Virus record (IMG/VR): IMGVR_UViG_3300046312_000089
Location: 1 to 41,676 of that record
Length of the DNA stretch: 41,676 nt
Strand: one strand, 5' to 3'
Origin: a virus
Shown here: piece by piece, positions 28 to 8,444 of the stretch
How the letters are laid out: every line of letters starts with the position of its first letter
Numbering within the stretch: position 1 is the stretch's first letter
Notes under the pieces: model-generated
What the model was told of the DNA's origin: nothing
The model's database searches: none
What the model saw: only the letters and a program-made list of their open reading frames with translations
Position numbers and translations under genes: made by a program

Positions 28-3000
28 ATGGCTGAAAACCTGAGCACGACCCTTGCCGACGATGCAAAGGCCCACACCATCAACCTGCTTCGAATCGAAG
101 CGGGCATGCGCATGGAAGTGGTGGGCATGCTGGATTCGCTGGAAAAAGACCTGCTGAAGCAGCTGGCCAGCACCGACCTGACCACGGCCAAGAAAGAGCG
201 CCTGCAAGCCTTCCTTGACCAGACCTCGGCGCAGGTTTCCAGCGCCTACAAGCAGATCGCCGACGTCGGGGAAGCCAACCTCGAAAAGGTGGCGACGATT
301 TCCAGCAAGCAGGTGGCCAAGAGCATTGACGCCGGGGTGGGAGTGAACATCGGCACGGTGCTTTCGCCGCAGCAGCTGACCCGGATCGCCAAGGGCCCGA
401 TTGTGGAAGGCTCGCCGATGGCCGATTGGTGGGCCGGGCAAGACCTTGCGGCACAGCGGCGATTCAAAGGCGCGATTCAGCAAGGCCTCTTGCTTGGCGA
501 AGACATGGCCAGCATTCAACGCCGGATCCGGGGCAGCAAGGCCAGCGGATTCACCGACGGGGCCCTTTCGGTTTCCAAGCGGGAAGCGCAGGCCCTGACC
601 CGCACCGCCGTGCAATCGGTGAACAACCAAGCGCGAATCGACACCTTGATGGAAAACGACGACGTCGTGAAGGGCATCGAATGGGTGGCCACGCTTGACG
701 CCCGCACGACCAAAACCTGCATGGCCCTTGACGGCAAGCAGTGGCGCTTGCCCGACCTGAAGCCCATCGGCCACGACAAGGCCTTTCCCGGGCCGGTGGC
801 GCACTGGGGATGCCGCAGCACGCAAGGGCCGGTGACCTATTCGTGGGCCGAGCTGGCGGGCAAAAAGCTGAAGAAAAAGGAAGGTGCCCCGACCTTTCAA
901 GAGGCCTTCCAAAAGCGCCTCGAGCAACAGGGATTCACGCCCGAGGAAGCGGCCAAGATCGAAGCCAAGCAGCGGGCCAGCATGGACGGCCAAGTCAGTG
1001 ATTCGAAAGACTGGCAAGCGTGGCTGACCGGCAAGGGCGACGCCTTCGCGCTGGAAAAGCTGGGCCCCGGCCGTTTCGCGCTTTGGAAGCAAGGCAAGCT
1101 GACCCTGACCGACCTCACCGACCAGCAGGGCCGGGAGCTGACCCTTGCCGAGCTGGAAGCCGCAATCGACGGCGGCACCATCCCGCCCGAAACCGAAGGC
1201 CGCGACTTCAAACCCGCGAATGCGGCCGCAAGCTACACCGCCGCGCAAGAGGCCGCCGCCACGCTTGCCGTGCAACAGCAGCAGCAGGGCGAGGCCGCCG
1301 CGAAGCTCGCCGAATACAAGGCGACGAAGGAAGGCCAGACGCTGAAAAACAAGTGGGCGCTGAAGGTGGAAGGCGAACTGGGCCAAGCCACCGACAGCGA
1401 AAAGGTGGCGTGGGTGGAAGCCAAGGCCGCCGAAGAGCAGGCGGCGAAGAGCAAAGCCAGCGTGCTTTCCACGGCCAAGAAAAAGCTGGTGGCGGGCGAG
1501 GCCGCGACCCCGGCACAGCTGAAGCTGATCGACAGCCTGACCCCCGAGGAAAAAGCGAACTTCGACGAAGCCGTGGCCGACGCCAAGGCCAACGCCGTGG
1601 GCACCGTGGTGGCCGACATCAAAGCCGAGCTGGCGAAGAGCGACGGGCAACCCACGGCCGCGCTGGTGGGCAGCCTGAACAACCTGCAAGCGAAGTTTCC
1701 CGAGGCCTTCGAAGACGTGAAAGCCTACGCGCAAGGCCTGCAAGCCGAGAAATCGGCCGGTGATGAGCTGCAAGCCATCCTGAGCAAGGGCCACCCGCTG
1801 GAAATCGACGGGGTGACTTCGGCCAAGGGTGCGACCAACGTCGAGATGCTGGCCGACGCCAAGCACAAGGCGACGATTTACGCCAACGAAGCCCTGATCG
1901 ACATCGCGAAGAAACCCGAGGGCCAGACGCTGAAGCACAAGGCACTTGCCGAGGCGCTGAACGTGCCCACAGCGCAGCTGAAGGCCGACGGCAGCAGCTT
2001 GGTGACCTTCGCCAGCGAAGAGCCCATCGAACTGCTGAAAAAGGTGGAAGCCGTGGCCGCTGAAAAGCAGGCGCAGGCCAGCCTCGCCGCGAAGATTTCC
2101 GGGGCGAAAAAGAAATGGATGGCGGGCGAGGAATTCACCCTCGCGCAAAAGACGGCGTGGGAGCAACTGACCCCCGACCAGCAAGCGGAATACCTCGACA
2201 CGTGGGGCCAGCTGAAGGCCAAGGCCGTGGCCGTGGATCCCGACGACGCGGCCGGGAAGTGGTTTGCCGACATGCTGAACGCCAACCCCGCCGACGGCAC
2301 CGCCACCGGGGCGCAGGGCGGGCAAACCGTGACCGCGCCCGACGTGACCGCCACGGGCCCGAAAAATCAAGATTTGTTGATCCCCGACCCGGCCGGGCTG
2401 GTGAAGCTGAAAGACCTGAGCGGATCGACGAAGCCCTACCTCGCGCAAGACCCCGTGACCGGCAAAAAGTGGGTGGTGAAGGATTCCAGCAAGGGCGGGG
2501 GTGGCGTCGACCACTTCCAAAGCGAAGCCCTCGCCGATGCCATTTACCGGGCAGCCGGGGCCAACGTGCCGGGCAGTGGCGTGGTGCTGACCGGGGGCAA
2601 GGCCATCAAGGTGGCCGAGTTTCTGGAAGGCGGCCAGACGCTCGGCGAGTGGAAGCAGGGGAAGAGCGCCACCGAAGTGGCAGCCATGCACCGGAAGCTG
2701 CAAGACGGCTTTGTCACCGACGCGCTGCTGGCCAACTGGGACGTGGCGGGGCTGGGCAACGACAACATTCTGGTGACCGCCGACGGCACCCCGGTGCGCA
2801 TCGATAACGGGGGCTCGCTTTTCTTCAGGGCGCAGGGCGGGAAAAAGCCGCTGCCGCCCGAGATCGCCGAAATGCAGACGCTTCGCGACCCCGGGCTGAA
2901 CCCGAACACCGCGCAAATTTTCGCAGGCCTGACACAAGACCAGATCAACGGCCAGATTTCCGACCTTGTGGCACGCAAGGAAGCGATCCTTGCGGCGGCC

Positions 3001-4833
3001 GCGCCCGACCCCAAGGTGCAAAAGGCGCTGAAGGCACGCCTCGAGTGGCTGGAAAAGCAGCTGCCCGCCGCAGCGAAAAAGACCCCGAGCACCACCCTTG
3101 CCCCGGCATCCGCCCCCGGCCAGATTCCGGCCAACGTCGGCGAGCTGCTGGAACGCGGCCGCAACGGCGCAGGCACGGCGCTGGTGGGCGACGGCGACGC
3201 CATCGAAGACCAGCAAATCGTCGTGTGGCGGGAGAAAACGCCGCAGGGCGAAAGCGTGGTGAAGCTGGAAGCCGACCTGACCCTTGCCGGAAGCGACCGC
3301 ATCATGAAGACGCTGGCCGACGCCGGGATGGACACCGCGACGAAGGGCGGCAGCAACTCCAACCCCTACGTGCAACCGAAGCCTGCGGGCATGCACCCGA
3401 AGGATGATTTCTGGCCGCAGCTGGAAGCCGCAGCCAAGACGGTTTCGACGCACGCCGCCGACGGGCAATACAACGTGGCCACGCTGGCCACCTACGACAC
3501 CGCCAAGGCCGCCATCCTGAAGCTGGCGAATGACCCGGCGACGGCCGCCGACCCGCAGGCCATGGCCATGCTGAAGCACTACGCCGACGCCGTGGCCAAG
3601 ATCGACGCCGCCAAGGCCGCAGGCAAGGCACTGGTGAAAGGCGAGCTTGGCAGCTACAAGGTGCCCCCGGGATGGACGCCGCCCACCACCGCCAAGGCCA
3701 AGGCCCCGGGCGACGTGGAAATCGACGGGTGGACGGTGACCCGCCTTGACCGCTTCGACTTCACCGTGAAGGAAGTCAAAGGCGGGGTGCTGACCGACAC
3801 CGGGGTGGTGAACCGCACGGCCGACCACGGGCGCATTTTCCGGCTGACCAAAGGGCCGGTGGAAGTGACGGTGCTCGCCTACCGCGAAGACGCCGCCAGC
3901 ACGCCAACCAAGCGCAGCATGCAGGGCACCTTGCGGGTGACCGTGCGCGGCAACGACGACCCGGCCGCCATCGAAGCGGGCCTGCAAGCCGTGGCCAAGC
4001 TCGGGATCGACACCAAGCCCCCGAGCGACGCGCAAAAAGAACTGCTTTACCTTCACAAGGGCGTGGTGATGCGCCGCAACAACACCGACACGGCCTACAC
4101 GGGGATCCTGAACAATTCGGCCCTGAGTGACGAAGCGAAGGTGAACGCCGTCAAAGACTGGGCCGAAAAGAAATACGGGGTGACCCTGCCACGCGAAAAA
4201 GGCAAGTGGGGCGACGACTACAACCCCGAGGGCTACATGCCGAGCAACGCCACCGGCTACCGGCAATGGACGCGGTGGGACGTGCCAGCCAAGGAACGCG
4301 ACAAGCTGCTGAAAACGAAGGTGCTTTACCACAGCACCAGCGACGTGGAACGCACCTTTCTGGCGTGGGTGGAAAACGCGGGCAACACCACCACCACCAT
4401 GGAGCGCCTGCGCACCGGGGTGCCGCTTTCCGGCACGGGCGGGGCTTCCAGCGACAGCGACATCAACCGGGGCGGTGGCGATTTCCTTTACACCAACACC
4501 ACCACCAAGGCGAAGGCCGAAAAGCTTCAGGGCTTCGTCTTCAAAGGCCGGAACATTGCCCGCCTTGACCTGCGCAGCGACGTTTCCGACTCCTACGGCG
4601 CTTGGGAATACGCCAACAGCCGACGCGGGGAGCTTCAGGAAATTGCGGCGCAAAACGGCATTTCGATCAGCGTCAATTCCGGCCTGCTGAAAAACGGGCT
4701 GAACCTTTTTGACGAGCTGGAAACCCTGAACACCGGCAACGCGACACGCCGGGCCAGCATCATTTCGAAGCTGAAGGCCATGGGCTTTGCAGAATGGCCG
4801 GATGGCCGGAAACTTGAAGACGTGATCAAATGA
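28..4833 (+). CDS. Giant Mu-F-like minor head protein with kinase-like and possible toxin-like C-terminal domains
   Basis: 1601 residues, several times the usual size of a Mu gpF/SPP1 gp7 minor head protein. Residues about 180-275 carry the head morphogenesis domain, ending in the HWGCRS motif at H259-S264. Residues about 290-770 are an Ala/Lys/Glu-rich helical linker with an imperfect internal repeat (AKKK-x-x-AGE at about 483 and 693). Residues about 790-990 resemble a HipA/CtkA or PI-kinase-like fold: KKWVVKD (about 813-819), NWDVAGLGNDNIL (about 902) and RIDNGGS (about 924), which match a nucleotide-binding Lys, a catalytic loop and a DFG-like metal site. The last about 170 residues begin with VLYHST at 1432, followed by GGASSDSDI and GGGDFLYT near 1471-1488. 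This could be a toxin-like or ADP-ribosyltransferase-like domain, which is a weak recollection and not proven. Such proteins are packaged in the head and may be injected. Start ATG is in a GGCCATGG context; the stop overlaps the next gene by ATGA. Confidence 0.85.
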   Translation: MAENLSTTLADDAKAHTINLLRIEAGMRMEVVGMLDSLEKDLLKQLASTDLTTAKKERLQAFLDQTSAQVSSAYKQIADVGEANLEKVATISSKQVAKSIDAGVGVNIGTVLSPQQLTRIAKGPIVEGSPMADWWAGQDLAAQRRFKGAIQQGLLLGEDMASIQRRIRGSKASGFTDGALSVSKREAQALTRTAVQSVNNQARIDTLMENDDVVKGIEWVATLDARTTKTCMALDGKQWRLPDLKPIGHDKAFPGPVAHWGCRSTQGPVTYSWAELAGKKLKKKEGAPTFQEAFQKRLEQQGFTPEEAAKIEAKQRASMDGQVSDSKDWQAWLTGKGDAFALEKLGPGRFALWKQGKLTLTDLTDQQGRELTLAELEAAIDGGTIPPETEGRDFKPANAAASYTAAQEAAATLAVQQQQQGEAAAKLAEYKATKEGQTLKNKWALKVEGELGQATDSEKVAWVEAKAAEEQAAKSKASVLSTAKKKLVAGEAATPAQLKLIDSLTPEEKANFDEAVADAKANAVGTVVADIKAELAKSDGQPTAALVGSLNNLQAKFPEAFEDVKAYAQGLQAEKSAGDELQAILSKGHPLEIDGVTSAKGATNVEMLADAKHKATIYANEALIDIAKKPEGQTLKHKALAEALNVPTAQLKADGSSLVTFASEEPIELLKKVEAVAAEKQAQASLAAKISGAKKKWMAGEEFTLAQKTAWEQLTPDQQAEYLDTWGQLKAKAVAVDPDDAAGKWFADMLNANPADGTATGAQGGQTVTAPDVTATGPKNQDLLIPDPAGLVKLKDLSGSTKPYLAQDPVTGKKWVVKDSSKGGGGVDHFQSEALADAIYRAAGANVPGSGVVLTGGKAIKVAEFLEGGQTLGEWKQGKSATEVAAMHRKLQDGFVTDALLANWDVAGLGNDNILVTADGTPVRIDNGGSLFFRAQGGKKPLPPEIAEMQTLRDPGLNPNTAQIFAGLTQDQINGQISDLVARKEAILAAAAPDPKVQKALKARLEWLEKQLPAAAKKTPSTTLAPASAPGQIPANVGELLERGRNGAGTALVGDGDAIEDQQIVVWREKTPQGESVVKLEADLTLAGSDRIMKTLADAGMDTATKGGSNSNPYVQPKPAGMHPKDDFWPQLEAAAKTVSTHAADGQYNVATLATYDTAKAAILKLANDPATAADPQAMAMLKHYADAVAKIDAAKAAGKALVKGELGSYKVPPGWTPPTTAKAKAPGDVEIDGWTVTRLDRFDFTVKEVKGGVLTDTGVVNRTADHGRIFRLTKGPVEVTVLAYREDAASTPTKRSMQGTLRVTVRGNDDPAAIEAGLQAVAKLGIDTKPPSDAQKELLYLHKGVVMRRNNTDTAYTGILNNSALSDEAKVNAVKDWAEKKYGVTLPREKGKWGDDYNPEGYMPSNATGYRQWTRWDVPAKERDKLLKTKVLYHSTSDVERTFLAWVENAGNTTTTMERLRTGVPLSGTGGASSDSDINRGGGDFLYTNTTTKAKAEKLQGFVFKGRNIARLDLRSDVSDSYGAWEYANSRRGELQEIAAQNGISISVNSGLLKNGLNLFDELETLNTGNATRRASIISKLKAMGFAEWPDGRKLEDVIK

Positions 4834-6273: not shown

Positions 6274-6297
6274 CGGCACGTGGGGGCCAAAAATGGC

Positions 6298-6325
6298 TTG
6301 CGGGTGATCCGGTGGGAGCGTAAAC
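6298..6325 (+). promoter_or_regulatory. Candidate promoter for the scaffold gene
   Basis: TTGCGG at 6298-6303 and GTAAAC at 6320-6325 have a 16-bp spacer. The ATG at 6334 is 8 bases after the -10, the same geometry as the box-class promoters but without the box. Confidence 0.4.
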
Positions 6326-6333
6326 CCGGGGGC

Positions 6334-7104
6334 ATGCTGAAATTCATTTACACCTCCGCAGACGAGATTCCCGAGGGAATGGCCGACCACTACACCGAAA
6401 GCAACGGCAAGTTTGTGCTGAACTGCGAAGGTGCGGTCCCCACCAGCCGCCTTGACGAATTCCGGCAAACCAACATCGATTTGAAAAAGAAGGTGGAAGC
6501 CTTCGGCGACCTTGACCCGGTGAAGGTGAAGGAAATCATGGCCAAGGCTGATGAGATTGAAGCAGCCAAGGCGACGACCCCCGAGAAAATCAAGGAAGAG
6601 GTCGACAAGCGCGTGGCGAAAATGAAGGAAGACCACGACCGCGAACTTCAGACGGTGCGCACGAAGCTGACCACCACCGAACAACAGCTTGCCGTGCGAA
6701 CCATTGACGCGGCGCTGATCGAAGCAGGCGGCGAATTCGGCCTGCGCACGACCGCCCACGACGACGCGGTGGCCCGTGGCCGTTCCCTCTTCCGCTTGGA
6801 AGACGGCCAGCCGGTGGCCTACAAGGGCGACGAAAAGCAATACGGCAAAGACGGCAGCCCGCTTTCCCCGCGTGAATTCATCGAAGGCCTGACCAAAGCC
6901 GCGCCGCACCTTTTCGAGCCGAGCGAAGGCGGCGGGGCCGGTGGATCCGGTGGCGCTGGCGGTGGTGGCGGCCGACTTCCCGAGGGCGGCAACCCATGGG
7001 CCAAGGAAACTTTCAACCTCACCAAGCAGGCGCAGATTCTGAAGCAAGACAAGGCCACGGCGCAGCGGATGGCAGCCAAGGCCGGGGTGCCGCTGAAGAT
7101 TTGA
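6334..7104 (+). CDS. Putative capsid scaffolding protein
   Basis: 256 residues. I place the start at ATG 6334 (MLKFIYTSADEIPEG) because scaffold-like proteins often begin with such a sequence followed by an acidic coiled-coil; an upstream GTG at 6280 would add 18 unlikely residues. Residues 50-150 are Lys/Glu-rich and helical (a likely coiled coil). A flexible Gly-rich stretch (GGGAGGSGGAGGGGG) near residue 210 precedes a short positively charged C-terminus, as expected of a scaffold whose tail binds the capsid protein. It lies directly before the major capsid gene, the usual scaffold position. No protease motif is visible. Confidence 0.75.
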   Translation: MLKFIYTSADEIPEGMADHYTESNGKFVLNCEGAVPTSRLDEFRQTNIDLKKKVEAFGDLDPVKVKEIMAKADEIEAAKATTPEKIKEEVDKRVAKMKEDHDRELQTVRTKLTTTEQQLAVRTIDAALIEAGGEFGLRTTAHDDAVARGRSLFRLEDGQPVAYKGDEKQYGKDGSPLSPREFIEGLTKAAPHLFEPSEGGGAGGSGGAGGGGGRLPEGGNPWAKETFNLTKQAQILKQDKATAQRMAAKAGVPLKI

Positions 7105-7112
7105 TTTCCAAC

Positions 7113-7180
7113 CGGAGGGCACGGCGGGCCCGGGGCTCATAACCCACGGGCAGGCGGTTCAAATCCGCCCCCTCCCACCA
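7113..7180 (+). tRNA. tRNA-like element, initiator-type (CAT anticodon), no D-arm
   Basis: The 3' half is canonical: anticodon loop CTCATAA (7136-7142), a 39-43 strand CCCAC, a 5-base variable region, T-arm GGCGG-TTCAAAT-CCGCC (7153-7169), acceptor strand CCCTCCC, discriminator A and an encoded CCA (7178-7180). Upstream, GGAGGG (7114-7119) pairs with CCCTCC (7170-7175), leaving a C1:C72 mismatch. A 1:72 mismatch and GGG:CCC flanking the anticodon loop are initiator tRNA traits. Only 8 bases lie between the acceptor and an extended anticodon stem (GCCC 7128-7131 with GGGC 7148-7151), so there is no D-arm. It could be a deleted tRNA gene, a tRNA mimic, or a host-tRNA-derived attachment core. 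Confidence 0.55.
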
Positions 7181-7234: not shown

Positions 7235-7271
7235 GCCCCGCCCGGCACTGATGATCGGGCGGGGCCTTTTT
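7235..7271 (+). terminator. Strong intrinsic terminator upstream of the capsid promoter
   Basis: GCCCCGCCCG (7235-7244) and CGGGCGGGGC (7256-7265) form a perfect 10-bp stem with an 11-base loop, followed by a T5 run. It ends transcription of the scaffold operon and tRNA-like RNA and insulates the capsid promoter. Confidence 0.85.
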
Positions 7272-7272
7272 G

Positions 7273-7288
7273 TGCGAAAATTTTCGCA
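7273..7288. promoter_or_regulatory. Perfect palindromic operator-like site
   Basis: TGCGAAAATTTTCGCA is a perfect 16-bp inverted repeat. It ends 7 bp before the TTGACG of the capsid promoter, a position suited to an activator. Confidence 0.8.
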
Positions 7289-7295
7289 TGGCTGA

Positions 7296-7324
7296 TTGAC
7301 GAAGCCGGGCCCGGGGTGCTAAAC
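7296..7324 (+). promoter_or_regulatory. Late promoter for the capsid operon
   Basis: TTGACG (7296-7301), 17-bp spacer, CTAAAC (7319-7324). The implied 5' UTR is about 95 bases and ends in repeated CAAC units with no Shine-Dalgarno sequence. Confidence 0.6.
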
Positions 7325-7427
7325 ACGGCGCGAAGTCAATCGAGGCGTGCCGGGGGCAGGCCTGAACCGCCCCGGGGGGGCAGTGAGCGACGCCACCAAC
7401 CAACCAACCAACCAATCATCTCTTTTT

Positions 7428-8444
7428 ATGGCCGAGACTAAAGTTTCTGACGTTGTGGTGCCGGAATTGTTCCTGCCCTACATGATCCAACGAACCGCCG
7501 AACTTTCCGAGTTCATGACGGCGGGCATCGTTGAAAGTTCCCCGCAGTTTGACGACATCGCCACGAATGCAGGCGGCAAGTTTGCCGACATGCCTTTTTG
7601 GAATGACCTCGACGGCGACGACGAAACCGTGGAAGACGACACCGACGCCACCGTCGGCAAGATCACCGCTTCCAAGGATGTGGCACGCATGCACGTGCGC
7701 CAAAAAGCCTTCGGTGCCCACGACCTTGCCGGGATTCTGGCAGGCGACGACCCGATGGCCGCCATCGCCGAACTGCTTGCCGGTTACCGCGCACGCCGGA
7801 TTCAAGCCCACGTGATTGCCACCCTGAACGGCATTTTCGGTGCCGCTTCCATGGCGGGCAGCGTGCTTGACATCCACAAGGCCAGCGGCACCCCGGATTC
7901 CACCAACTTCCTGAACGGCCTGAGCTTCATCACTGCCACGCAGCTGATGGGCGACAGCAAAGCGAAGTTGACCGCCGTCCTGATGCACAGCGCCGTCGAA
8001 AGCCACCTGCGCAAGCTTGACCTGATCGACTACGTGCCCGACTCCGAAGGCAAGGCCATGATTGGCGTCTTCCAAGGCAAGCGCGTGATTGTTGACGACG
8101 GCTGCCCCGTGGAAACCATCGACGGGAAGCCCGTTTACAGCACCTTCCTTTTCGGACAAGGGGCCATTGCTTACGGGCAAAGCCGCAAGAACGAAGTGCC
8201 CGAAGGTGCCGCCCCGGGCAGCACTTGGCAGCTGGAATTCGGCCGCAATTCCCTCGGTTCTTCCAGCCACTTGATTAACCGCTGGCGCATCATCATGCAC
8301 CCACGCGGCATCAAGTGGGCCGAAGCTTCGGTGGCGAAAAACAACCCCACCAATGCCGAGATCGCGACCGCAACCAACTGGGTGCGCGTGTTCGAGCAAA
8401 AGAACGTGCGGATTGTGAAAGTGCGCCACAACGTGCTTTCCTAA
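7428..8444 (+). CDS. Major capsid protein
   Basis: 338 residues. The opening VVVPELFLPYMIQRTAELSEFMTAGIVESS is typical of HK97-fold coat proteins that begin with a target-binding helix. The middle (VARMHVRQKAFGAHDLAGILAGDDPMAAIAELLAGYRARR) and the later AVESHLRKLDLIDYVPDSEGK are also characteristic of a major coat family. It sits after a scaffold gene and before connectors, and has its own promoter. I chose ATG 7428, after the CA-rich leader, over an upstream GTG that would encode an implausible extension. A terminator follows at once, consistent with a very abundant product made on a mostly monocistronic mRNA. Confidence 0.9.
   Translation: MAETKVSDVVVPELFLPYMIQRTAELSEFMTAGIVESSPQFDDIATNAGGKFADMPFWNDLDGDDETVEDDTDATVGKITASKDVARMHVRQKAFGAHDLAGILAGDDPMAAIAELLAGYRARRIQAHVIATLNGIFGAASMAGSVLDIHKASGTPDSTNFLNGLSFITATQLMGDSKAKLTAVLMHSAVESHLRKLDLIDYVPDSEGKAMIGVFQGKRVIVDDGCPVETIDGKPVYSTFLFGQGAIAYGQSRKNEVPEGAAPGSTWQLEFGRNSLGSSSHLINRWRIIMHPRGIKWAEASVAKNNPTNAEIATATNWVRVFEQKNVRIVKVRHNVLS

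Follow-up and report, generated by a model that had tools for sequence, protein, structure and literature searches.

A probable initiator-type tRNA gene without a D-arm near the major capsid gene of a viral contig

In this study, we describe a D-arm-less, initiator-type tRNA-like gene of 68 nt, including an encoded CCA, that lies between the head scaffolding and major capsid protein genes of a 41.7-kb viral contig (41,676 nt; this whole stretch is referred to as the window). The element occupies positions 7113..7180 of the plus strand, to which all window coordinates refer. Judged from sequence comparison, it is probably a maintained phage gene for an initiator-type tRNA that has lost all or part of its D-arm. 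This reading is based on the architecture of the element, on relatives at the same place that carry compensatory stem changes, and on the recurrence of D-short forms in other phages. If the gene is indeed maintained and works with ordinary bacterial factors, it would reveal which parts of an initiator tRNA are truly needed.

Direct reading of the element (CGGAGGG CACGGCGGGCC CGGGG CTCATAA CCCAC GGGCA GGCGG TTCAAAT CCGCC CCCTCCC A CCA) bears out the original prediction of a tRNA-like element with initiator traits, an encoded CCA and no canonical D-arm. The 5' acceptor strand CGGAGGG (7113..7119) is paired from G2 to G7, with GGAGGG (7114-7119) fully matched by CCCTCC (7170-7175), and C1 (7113) is open opposite C72. 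Thus, six of the seven acceptor pairs are formed and 1:72 is open, as in initiators. The 3' acceptor strand, together with A73 (7177) and the encoded CCA (7178-7180), spans 7170..7180 and was recovered by direct reading and by a structural scan. The T-arm (7153..7169), seen by direct reading, in the scan and in an alignment, has all five pairs (GGCGG/CCGCC) and the loop TTCAAAT. Positions 8-26 of a tRNA are represented by an 11-nt stand-in without a D-arm (7120..7130), of which the first 8 nt (7120-7127) link the acceptor to the extended anticodon stem. In the minimum free energy (MFE) structure, the anticodon arm (7128..7151) consists of 5 bp, a bulged A7146 and 3 bp, that is, an 8-bp stem GCCCGGGG/CCCaCGGGC with one bulged A. 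Its loop CTCATAA holds the anticodon CAU at 7138-7140 and is bordered by GGG/CCC. The acceptor strand GGAGGG was expected 8 nt before an extended anticodon stem, and the MFE structure confirms this spacing. The extended stem itself stands with a qualification, since it is present in the MFE structure but in the canonical register just 3 pairs remain, 27:43 and 28:42 being mismatched. The extension needs bases 44-47 of the 5-nt variable region and leaves A48 ahead of the T-stem. The D-arm is absent from the MFE fold, whose energy (-33.6 kcal/mol, z -1.69) is only mildly unusual, as expected of a GC-rich sequence. No clear equivalents of G18-G19, U8 and R11:Y24 can be recognised in the element.

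Both strands of the window were scanned for an acceptor, an anticodon arm and a T-arm with the D length left free, and 7113-7180 was the single match. The same scan of 60 dinucleotide-preserving shuffles gave no match. Together with the stem covariation described below, this leads us to reject a chance origin, as had been anticipated from the combination of a C1:C72 mismatch, GGG:CCC and an encoded CCA. Regarding its class, the element shows the canonical 7-bp acceptor, the 5-bp T-arm with a TTCRANY loop and the CCA, and the canonical D-arm of 3-4 bp is missing, with 11 nt preceding the 5-nt anticodon strand. The bacterial initiator features of a 1:72 position without a Watson-Crick pair (here C1xC72) and of CAU with three G-C pairs by the loop are both present, and the purine 11:pyrimidine 24 feature is missing along with the D-stem. 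ARAGORN reported no tRNA at the element, and its score with the Rfam tRNA model (RF00005) was 17.1 bits, under the gathering threshold of 29. A canonical D-arm further upstream, named in the original prediction as the sign of a misreading, was found neither with ARAGORN nor with the Rfam tRNA model, and the expected 3' similarity to initiator tRNA is seen as a match of about 80% between the 3' 49 bases and annotated tRNA-Met genes. Because the element falls below the Rfam threshold and lacks a D-stem, we do not count it among the canonical tRNAs and call it a D-arm-less initiator-type tRNA-like gene. In general, standard tRNA finders mostly overlook such D-short elements. A reading of GGAGGG as a Shine-Dalgarno sequence was rejected; GGAGGG has no gene start behind it, and a relative at the same place (L003) reads GTAGGG.

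The element begins 8 nt after the stop codon (7104) of the gene for the head scaffolding protein (6280..7104; phrog_206, E 3e-39). It is followed by an intrinsic terminator (7235..7271, an inverted repeat with a 10-bp perfect stem and then TTTTT, 55 nt past the CCA), by a promoter-like TTGACG-N15-TGCTAA (7296..7322) and by the major capsid protein gene (7428..8444; phrog_247, E 1.6e-99), which likely starts at ATG 7428 within the ORF 7347-8444. A location between the scaffold terminator and the capsid promoter had been proposed, which is not correct, as the element is 5' of the terminator. Since it precedes the terminator, it would be the final item of the upstream transcript and is outside the capsid leader. 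The terminator fold has z values of -3.6 in the window, -4.3 in L003 and -5.8 in L004, a second relative with the element at the same place. The motif TTGACG-N15-TGCTAW also aligns in both relatives; a consensus promoter scan did not call the 7296-7322 site. The gap between terminator and promoter-like site contains a perfect 16-bp palindrome, TGCGAAAATTTTCGCA (7273-7288), possibly an operator, which is present in L003 and absent from L004. Elsewhere in the window, a 1601-aa ORF (28-4833) has matches to head morphogenesis families that are limited to its first ~460 residues, and the remaining ~1140 residues gave no PHROG match at 0.001.

Relatives of the window were sought by capsid protein. 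Many were found, and the element is carried only by L002, L003 and L004. L002 is an identical contig over the shared stretch, and besides it no relative nearer than L003 and L004 was found. The capsid proteins of L003 and L004 are 90% and 66% identical to that of the window, respectively, and in both the tRNA-like element is situated 8-9 nt past the scaffold stop. In the more distant relatives L005, L213 and L219, the terminator and the promoter-like site are present and the tRNA is absent. The L003 element has 75 nt, a complete cloverleaf with an 18-nt D region, G11:C24 and C1xA72, and it scored 38.5 bits in a direct scan, having been overlooked by a fast Rfam search of whole records. L004, the only D-short relative at the same place, has a 13-nt D region and 27.8 bits, which is below 29; its T-stem carries a U.U mismatch, and its cloverleaf (-19.5 kcal/mol) is not its MFE structure (-25.0 kcal/mol). 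The histories of element and flanks disagree. By its flanks the window goes with L003 (identity is 78-79% over the scaffold gene and over the 110 nt directly past the element, then falls to 69%); by the element it goes with L004 (81% identity, flanks 54-65%; 65% element identity to L003). In the simplest reading, the D-short form would be old in the group and the site in L003 would have been taken over by a different initiator tRNA; alternatively, the D-arm may have been lost twice independently. Under either scenario, the window form is no pseudogene of recent origin.

Selection on the structure was assessed in an alignment of seven elements (window, L003, L004, L090, L108, L327 and L113) from which the D region was left out. 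Paired cells amount to 96.4%, and 9 pairs are altered on both sides. The covariation score is 0.571, compared to 0.168 in shuffled alignments and at most 0.182 in slid registers, and for the five D-short elements only it is 0.494 versus 0.184. Position 1:72 is unpaired in 7/7 elements, with C1 opposite A, C or T, and the G2-G7 pairing is kept at 100% in the seven relatives; L108, L327 and L113 were drawn by a pattern fixing C1G2, GGG(5-7), GGCTCATANCC, TTCAANTC and ACCA and were retained because their acceptors pair well, and therefore invariance at those columns is partly imposed. The pairing of the T-stem and of the outer anticodon stem was not imposed by the pattern. The GGG/CCC of the window by the loop is shared with L004 and L113, and position 29:41 differs in the others, being A-U in L003 and C-G in L090, L108 and L327. 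L090 harbors a recognised tRNA-Met (46.6 bits, G11:C24 as in L003) just ahead of a probable scaffold gene; its major head protein is unrelated (phrog_3437), and the search for relatives of its capsid returned L090 itself only. The L003 element resembles that of L090 and differs from it at 12/75 positions. Five compensated pairs account for ten of these, a G-C/G-U change for another, and the last lies within the anticodon loop. As a separate observation, the TAA stop of a 146-aa phage gene in L090 (1121-1599) falls in the tRNA-Met anticodon loop, the C-terminus being encoded by the 5' half of the tRNA.

Initiator function is determined by the CAU anticodon, which MetRS reads, by three G-C pairs, which serve P-site selection, and by the lack of pairing at the 1-72 end, on which formylation and resistance to peptidyl-tRNA hydrolase depend; the D-stem is only of secondary weight (PMC4611024). 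The window element retains CAU, the three G-C pairs and the unpaired 1-72 end and is without the D-stem determinant. It would be transcribed as the last cistron of a portal-to-scaffold transcript that ends at the terminator 55 nt on, and host RNase P and 3' exonucleases would then release a 68-nt RNA bearing the encoded CCA. This RNA would be charged by host MetRS via its CAU anticodon and, owing to the unpaired 1:72, accepted by Met-tRNA formyltransferase, while the GG:CC pairs beside the loop would suit the ribosomal P site and its use in initiation. Since an initiator goes through neither EF-Tu nor the A site, it may not need a D-arm. The RNA would in this way supplement or replace the host initiator tRNA during synthesis of the very abundant capsid protein. 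The element also bears on the question why phages carry tRNAs, here with one beside a capsid gene.

Alternatively, the element could be a tRNA-like processing signal in the late transcript that directs RNase P and 3' nucleases to trim the scaffold mRNA; the released RNA would have no translational role. The acceptor, T-arm and RCCA are the only parts that are intact in every form. An acceptor, a T-arm and RCCA make up a minimal RNase P substrate. A role of RCCA in the RNase P substrate is noted in one report (PMC12710915). The placement of the element, with a stop codon 8 nt ahead of it and a terminator 55 nt beyond, would also suit such a signal. However, the two transcripts are already separated by the terminator, and a processing signal leaves the conserved CAU loop, the adjoining G-C pairs and the invariant open 1:72 unexplained, so that we regard this explanation as unlikely. 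Still less probable is a decoy or replacement aimed at a host nuclease with initiator tRNA as its substrate, of which VapC is an example; through its unusual shape or a changed anticodon loop, the RNA would evade the nuclease or soak it up. Anti-nuclease roles have been proposed for phage tRNAs altered in the anticodon loop, and VapC hits initiator tRNA, but phages mostly avoid encoding the targeted tRNA-fMet (PMC10264068). The idea is based here on U38 of L003 only, where the other elements have A38; the usual CUCAUAA loop is retained in both the window and L004.

That the element derives from a host tRNA gene as an attachment core, or is a decaying tRNA pseudogene, is disfavoured as the least probable explanation, for although the graded Rfam scores (46.6, 38.5, 27.8 and 17.1) could be taken as decay and Arthrobacter phages have a 3'-half-only tRNA-Met match near a tyrosine integrase, the 5' acceptor strand is retained and covaries here, the D-short form is common to the window and L004 despite flanks of 54-65% identity, and no integrase or resolvase occurs in the window, L003 and L004 records (L004 is a 13-kb fragment). 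The attachment core, already doubted in the original prediction for its unusual place and for want of an integrase, was rejected as the main reading, as neither a tyrosine integrase (PF00589) nor a serine recombinase (PF00239) was found in the window or the 59-kb L003 record and the 5' acceptor strand is present and conserved.

As a probable maintained initiator-type tRNA gene, the element was compared with known systems. Phages commonly encode initiator-type tRNA-Met (603 matching records), and Sinorhizobium phage phiM5 (L331, 2353-12426) has a tRNA-Met directly 3' of its major capsid gene, in the head cluster. Thus, the kind is already known, and what sets the window form apart is the missing or minimal D-arm. 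The tRNA-Met of phiM5, of many mycobacteriophages and of Pseudomonas phage PA5oct share with the window element CAU, an encoded CCA and initiator-like anticodon and T-arms. However, the D-arm region of the phage tRNA-Met examined is ~18-20 nt and most of them are annotated, whereas the window form has 11 nt and was missed by ARAGORN and Rfam. Bacterial tRNA-fMet likewise has an open 1:72, GGG:CCC by the loop, CUCAUAA, the T-loop TTCAAAT and A73-CCA; compared to it, the window element is without a D-stem and hence without an A11:U24-type determinant, carries C72 where tRNA-fMet has A72, lacks U8, and has an anticodon stem that reaches into the variable region. In metazoan mitochondria, D-armless tRNAs likewise replace the D-arm by a short linker and retain the other arms, but they are organellar elongators with mitochondrial partner factors. 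For armless tRNAs, a 2014 review tabulates metazoan mitochondria only and calls bacterial tRNA genes uniform (PMC4033280), and the words 'phage' and 'initiator' are both absent from a 2020 review of non-canonical tRNAs (PMC7609411). No D-armless phage or bacterial tRNA was found in the open-access literature searched.

Among 75 distinct CAU, CCA-encoding elements from the fetched loci, 71 have a D region of 18-24 nt and the other 4 one of 12-14 nt; the window element (11 nt) is outside this filter because its canonical anticodon stem is 3 bp. The D-short CAU lineages among the matches listed are window/L004 and, from viruses unrelated to these, L108/L327 and L113. Erythrobacter phage vB_EliS-L02, the one isolated phage in which a related form was seen, probably adds a further one, with an unannotated element of 26.1 bits and a 13-nt D region (OL955261.1, 71233-71299; L333 covers 69755-72792). 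Like the window element, it has an anticodon arm extended by the variable loop, but its A1:U72 is paired, it has an A4xC69 mismatch and it is located in a 30-tRNA array. Other candidates were discarded: apparent D-short matches with 8-9 or 15-17 nt were interpreted as ordinary tRNAs placed in a false acceptor register, and L324 has a better 7-bp acceptor further upstream.

Loss of the arm seems to be offset in the window, as in L108/L327, by variable-loop bases that extend the anticodon stem to 8 bp, and between L108 and L327 a compensatory change (CAC/GTG to CAG/CTG) lies inside this extended stem. The stabilisation gained by pairing of D region and variable loop in the window, L108, L327, L113 and Erythrobacter elements exceeds that of 96-100% of 68 canonical CAU tRNAs (68/68 for the extended arm of the window), and L004 is unremarkable. 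Against same-letter shuffles, just the window (p 0.03) and L113 (p 0.06) stand out; thus, the case for the extended stem is suggestive, not proven. Potentially, these elements represent a recurrent, overlooked phage class of working D-arm-less initiator tRNAs, several lineages of which would be stabilised by an anticodon stem extended with the variable loop, the D-arm being unneeded since the A site is never entered; we put this forward tentatively, as somewhat less than an even prospect. If true, phage tRNA censuses overlook a class, and the form would offer a compact scaffold for translation engineering. On the minus strand of L113 (reverse-complement position 2857), ~100 nt past the CAU element, there is a second tRNA-like element of 65 nt with a 7-bp acceptor, a short D region and CCA, which suggests a small array of atypical tRNAs.
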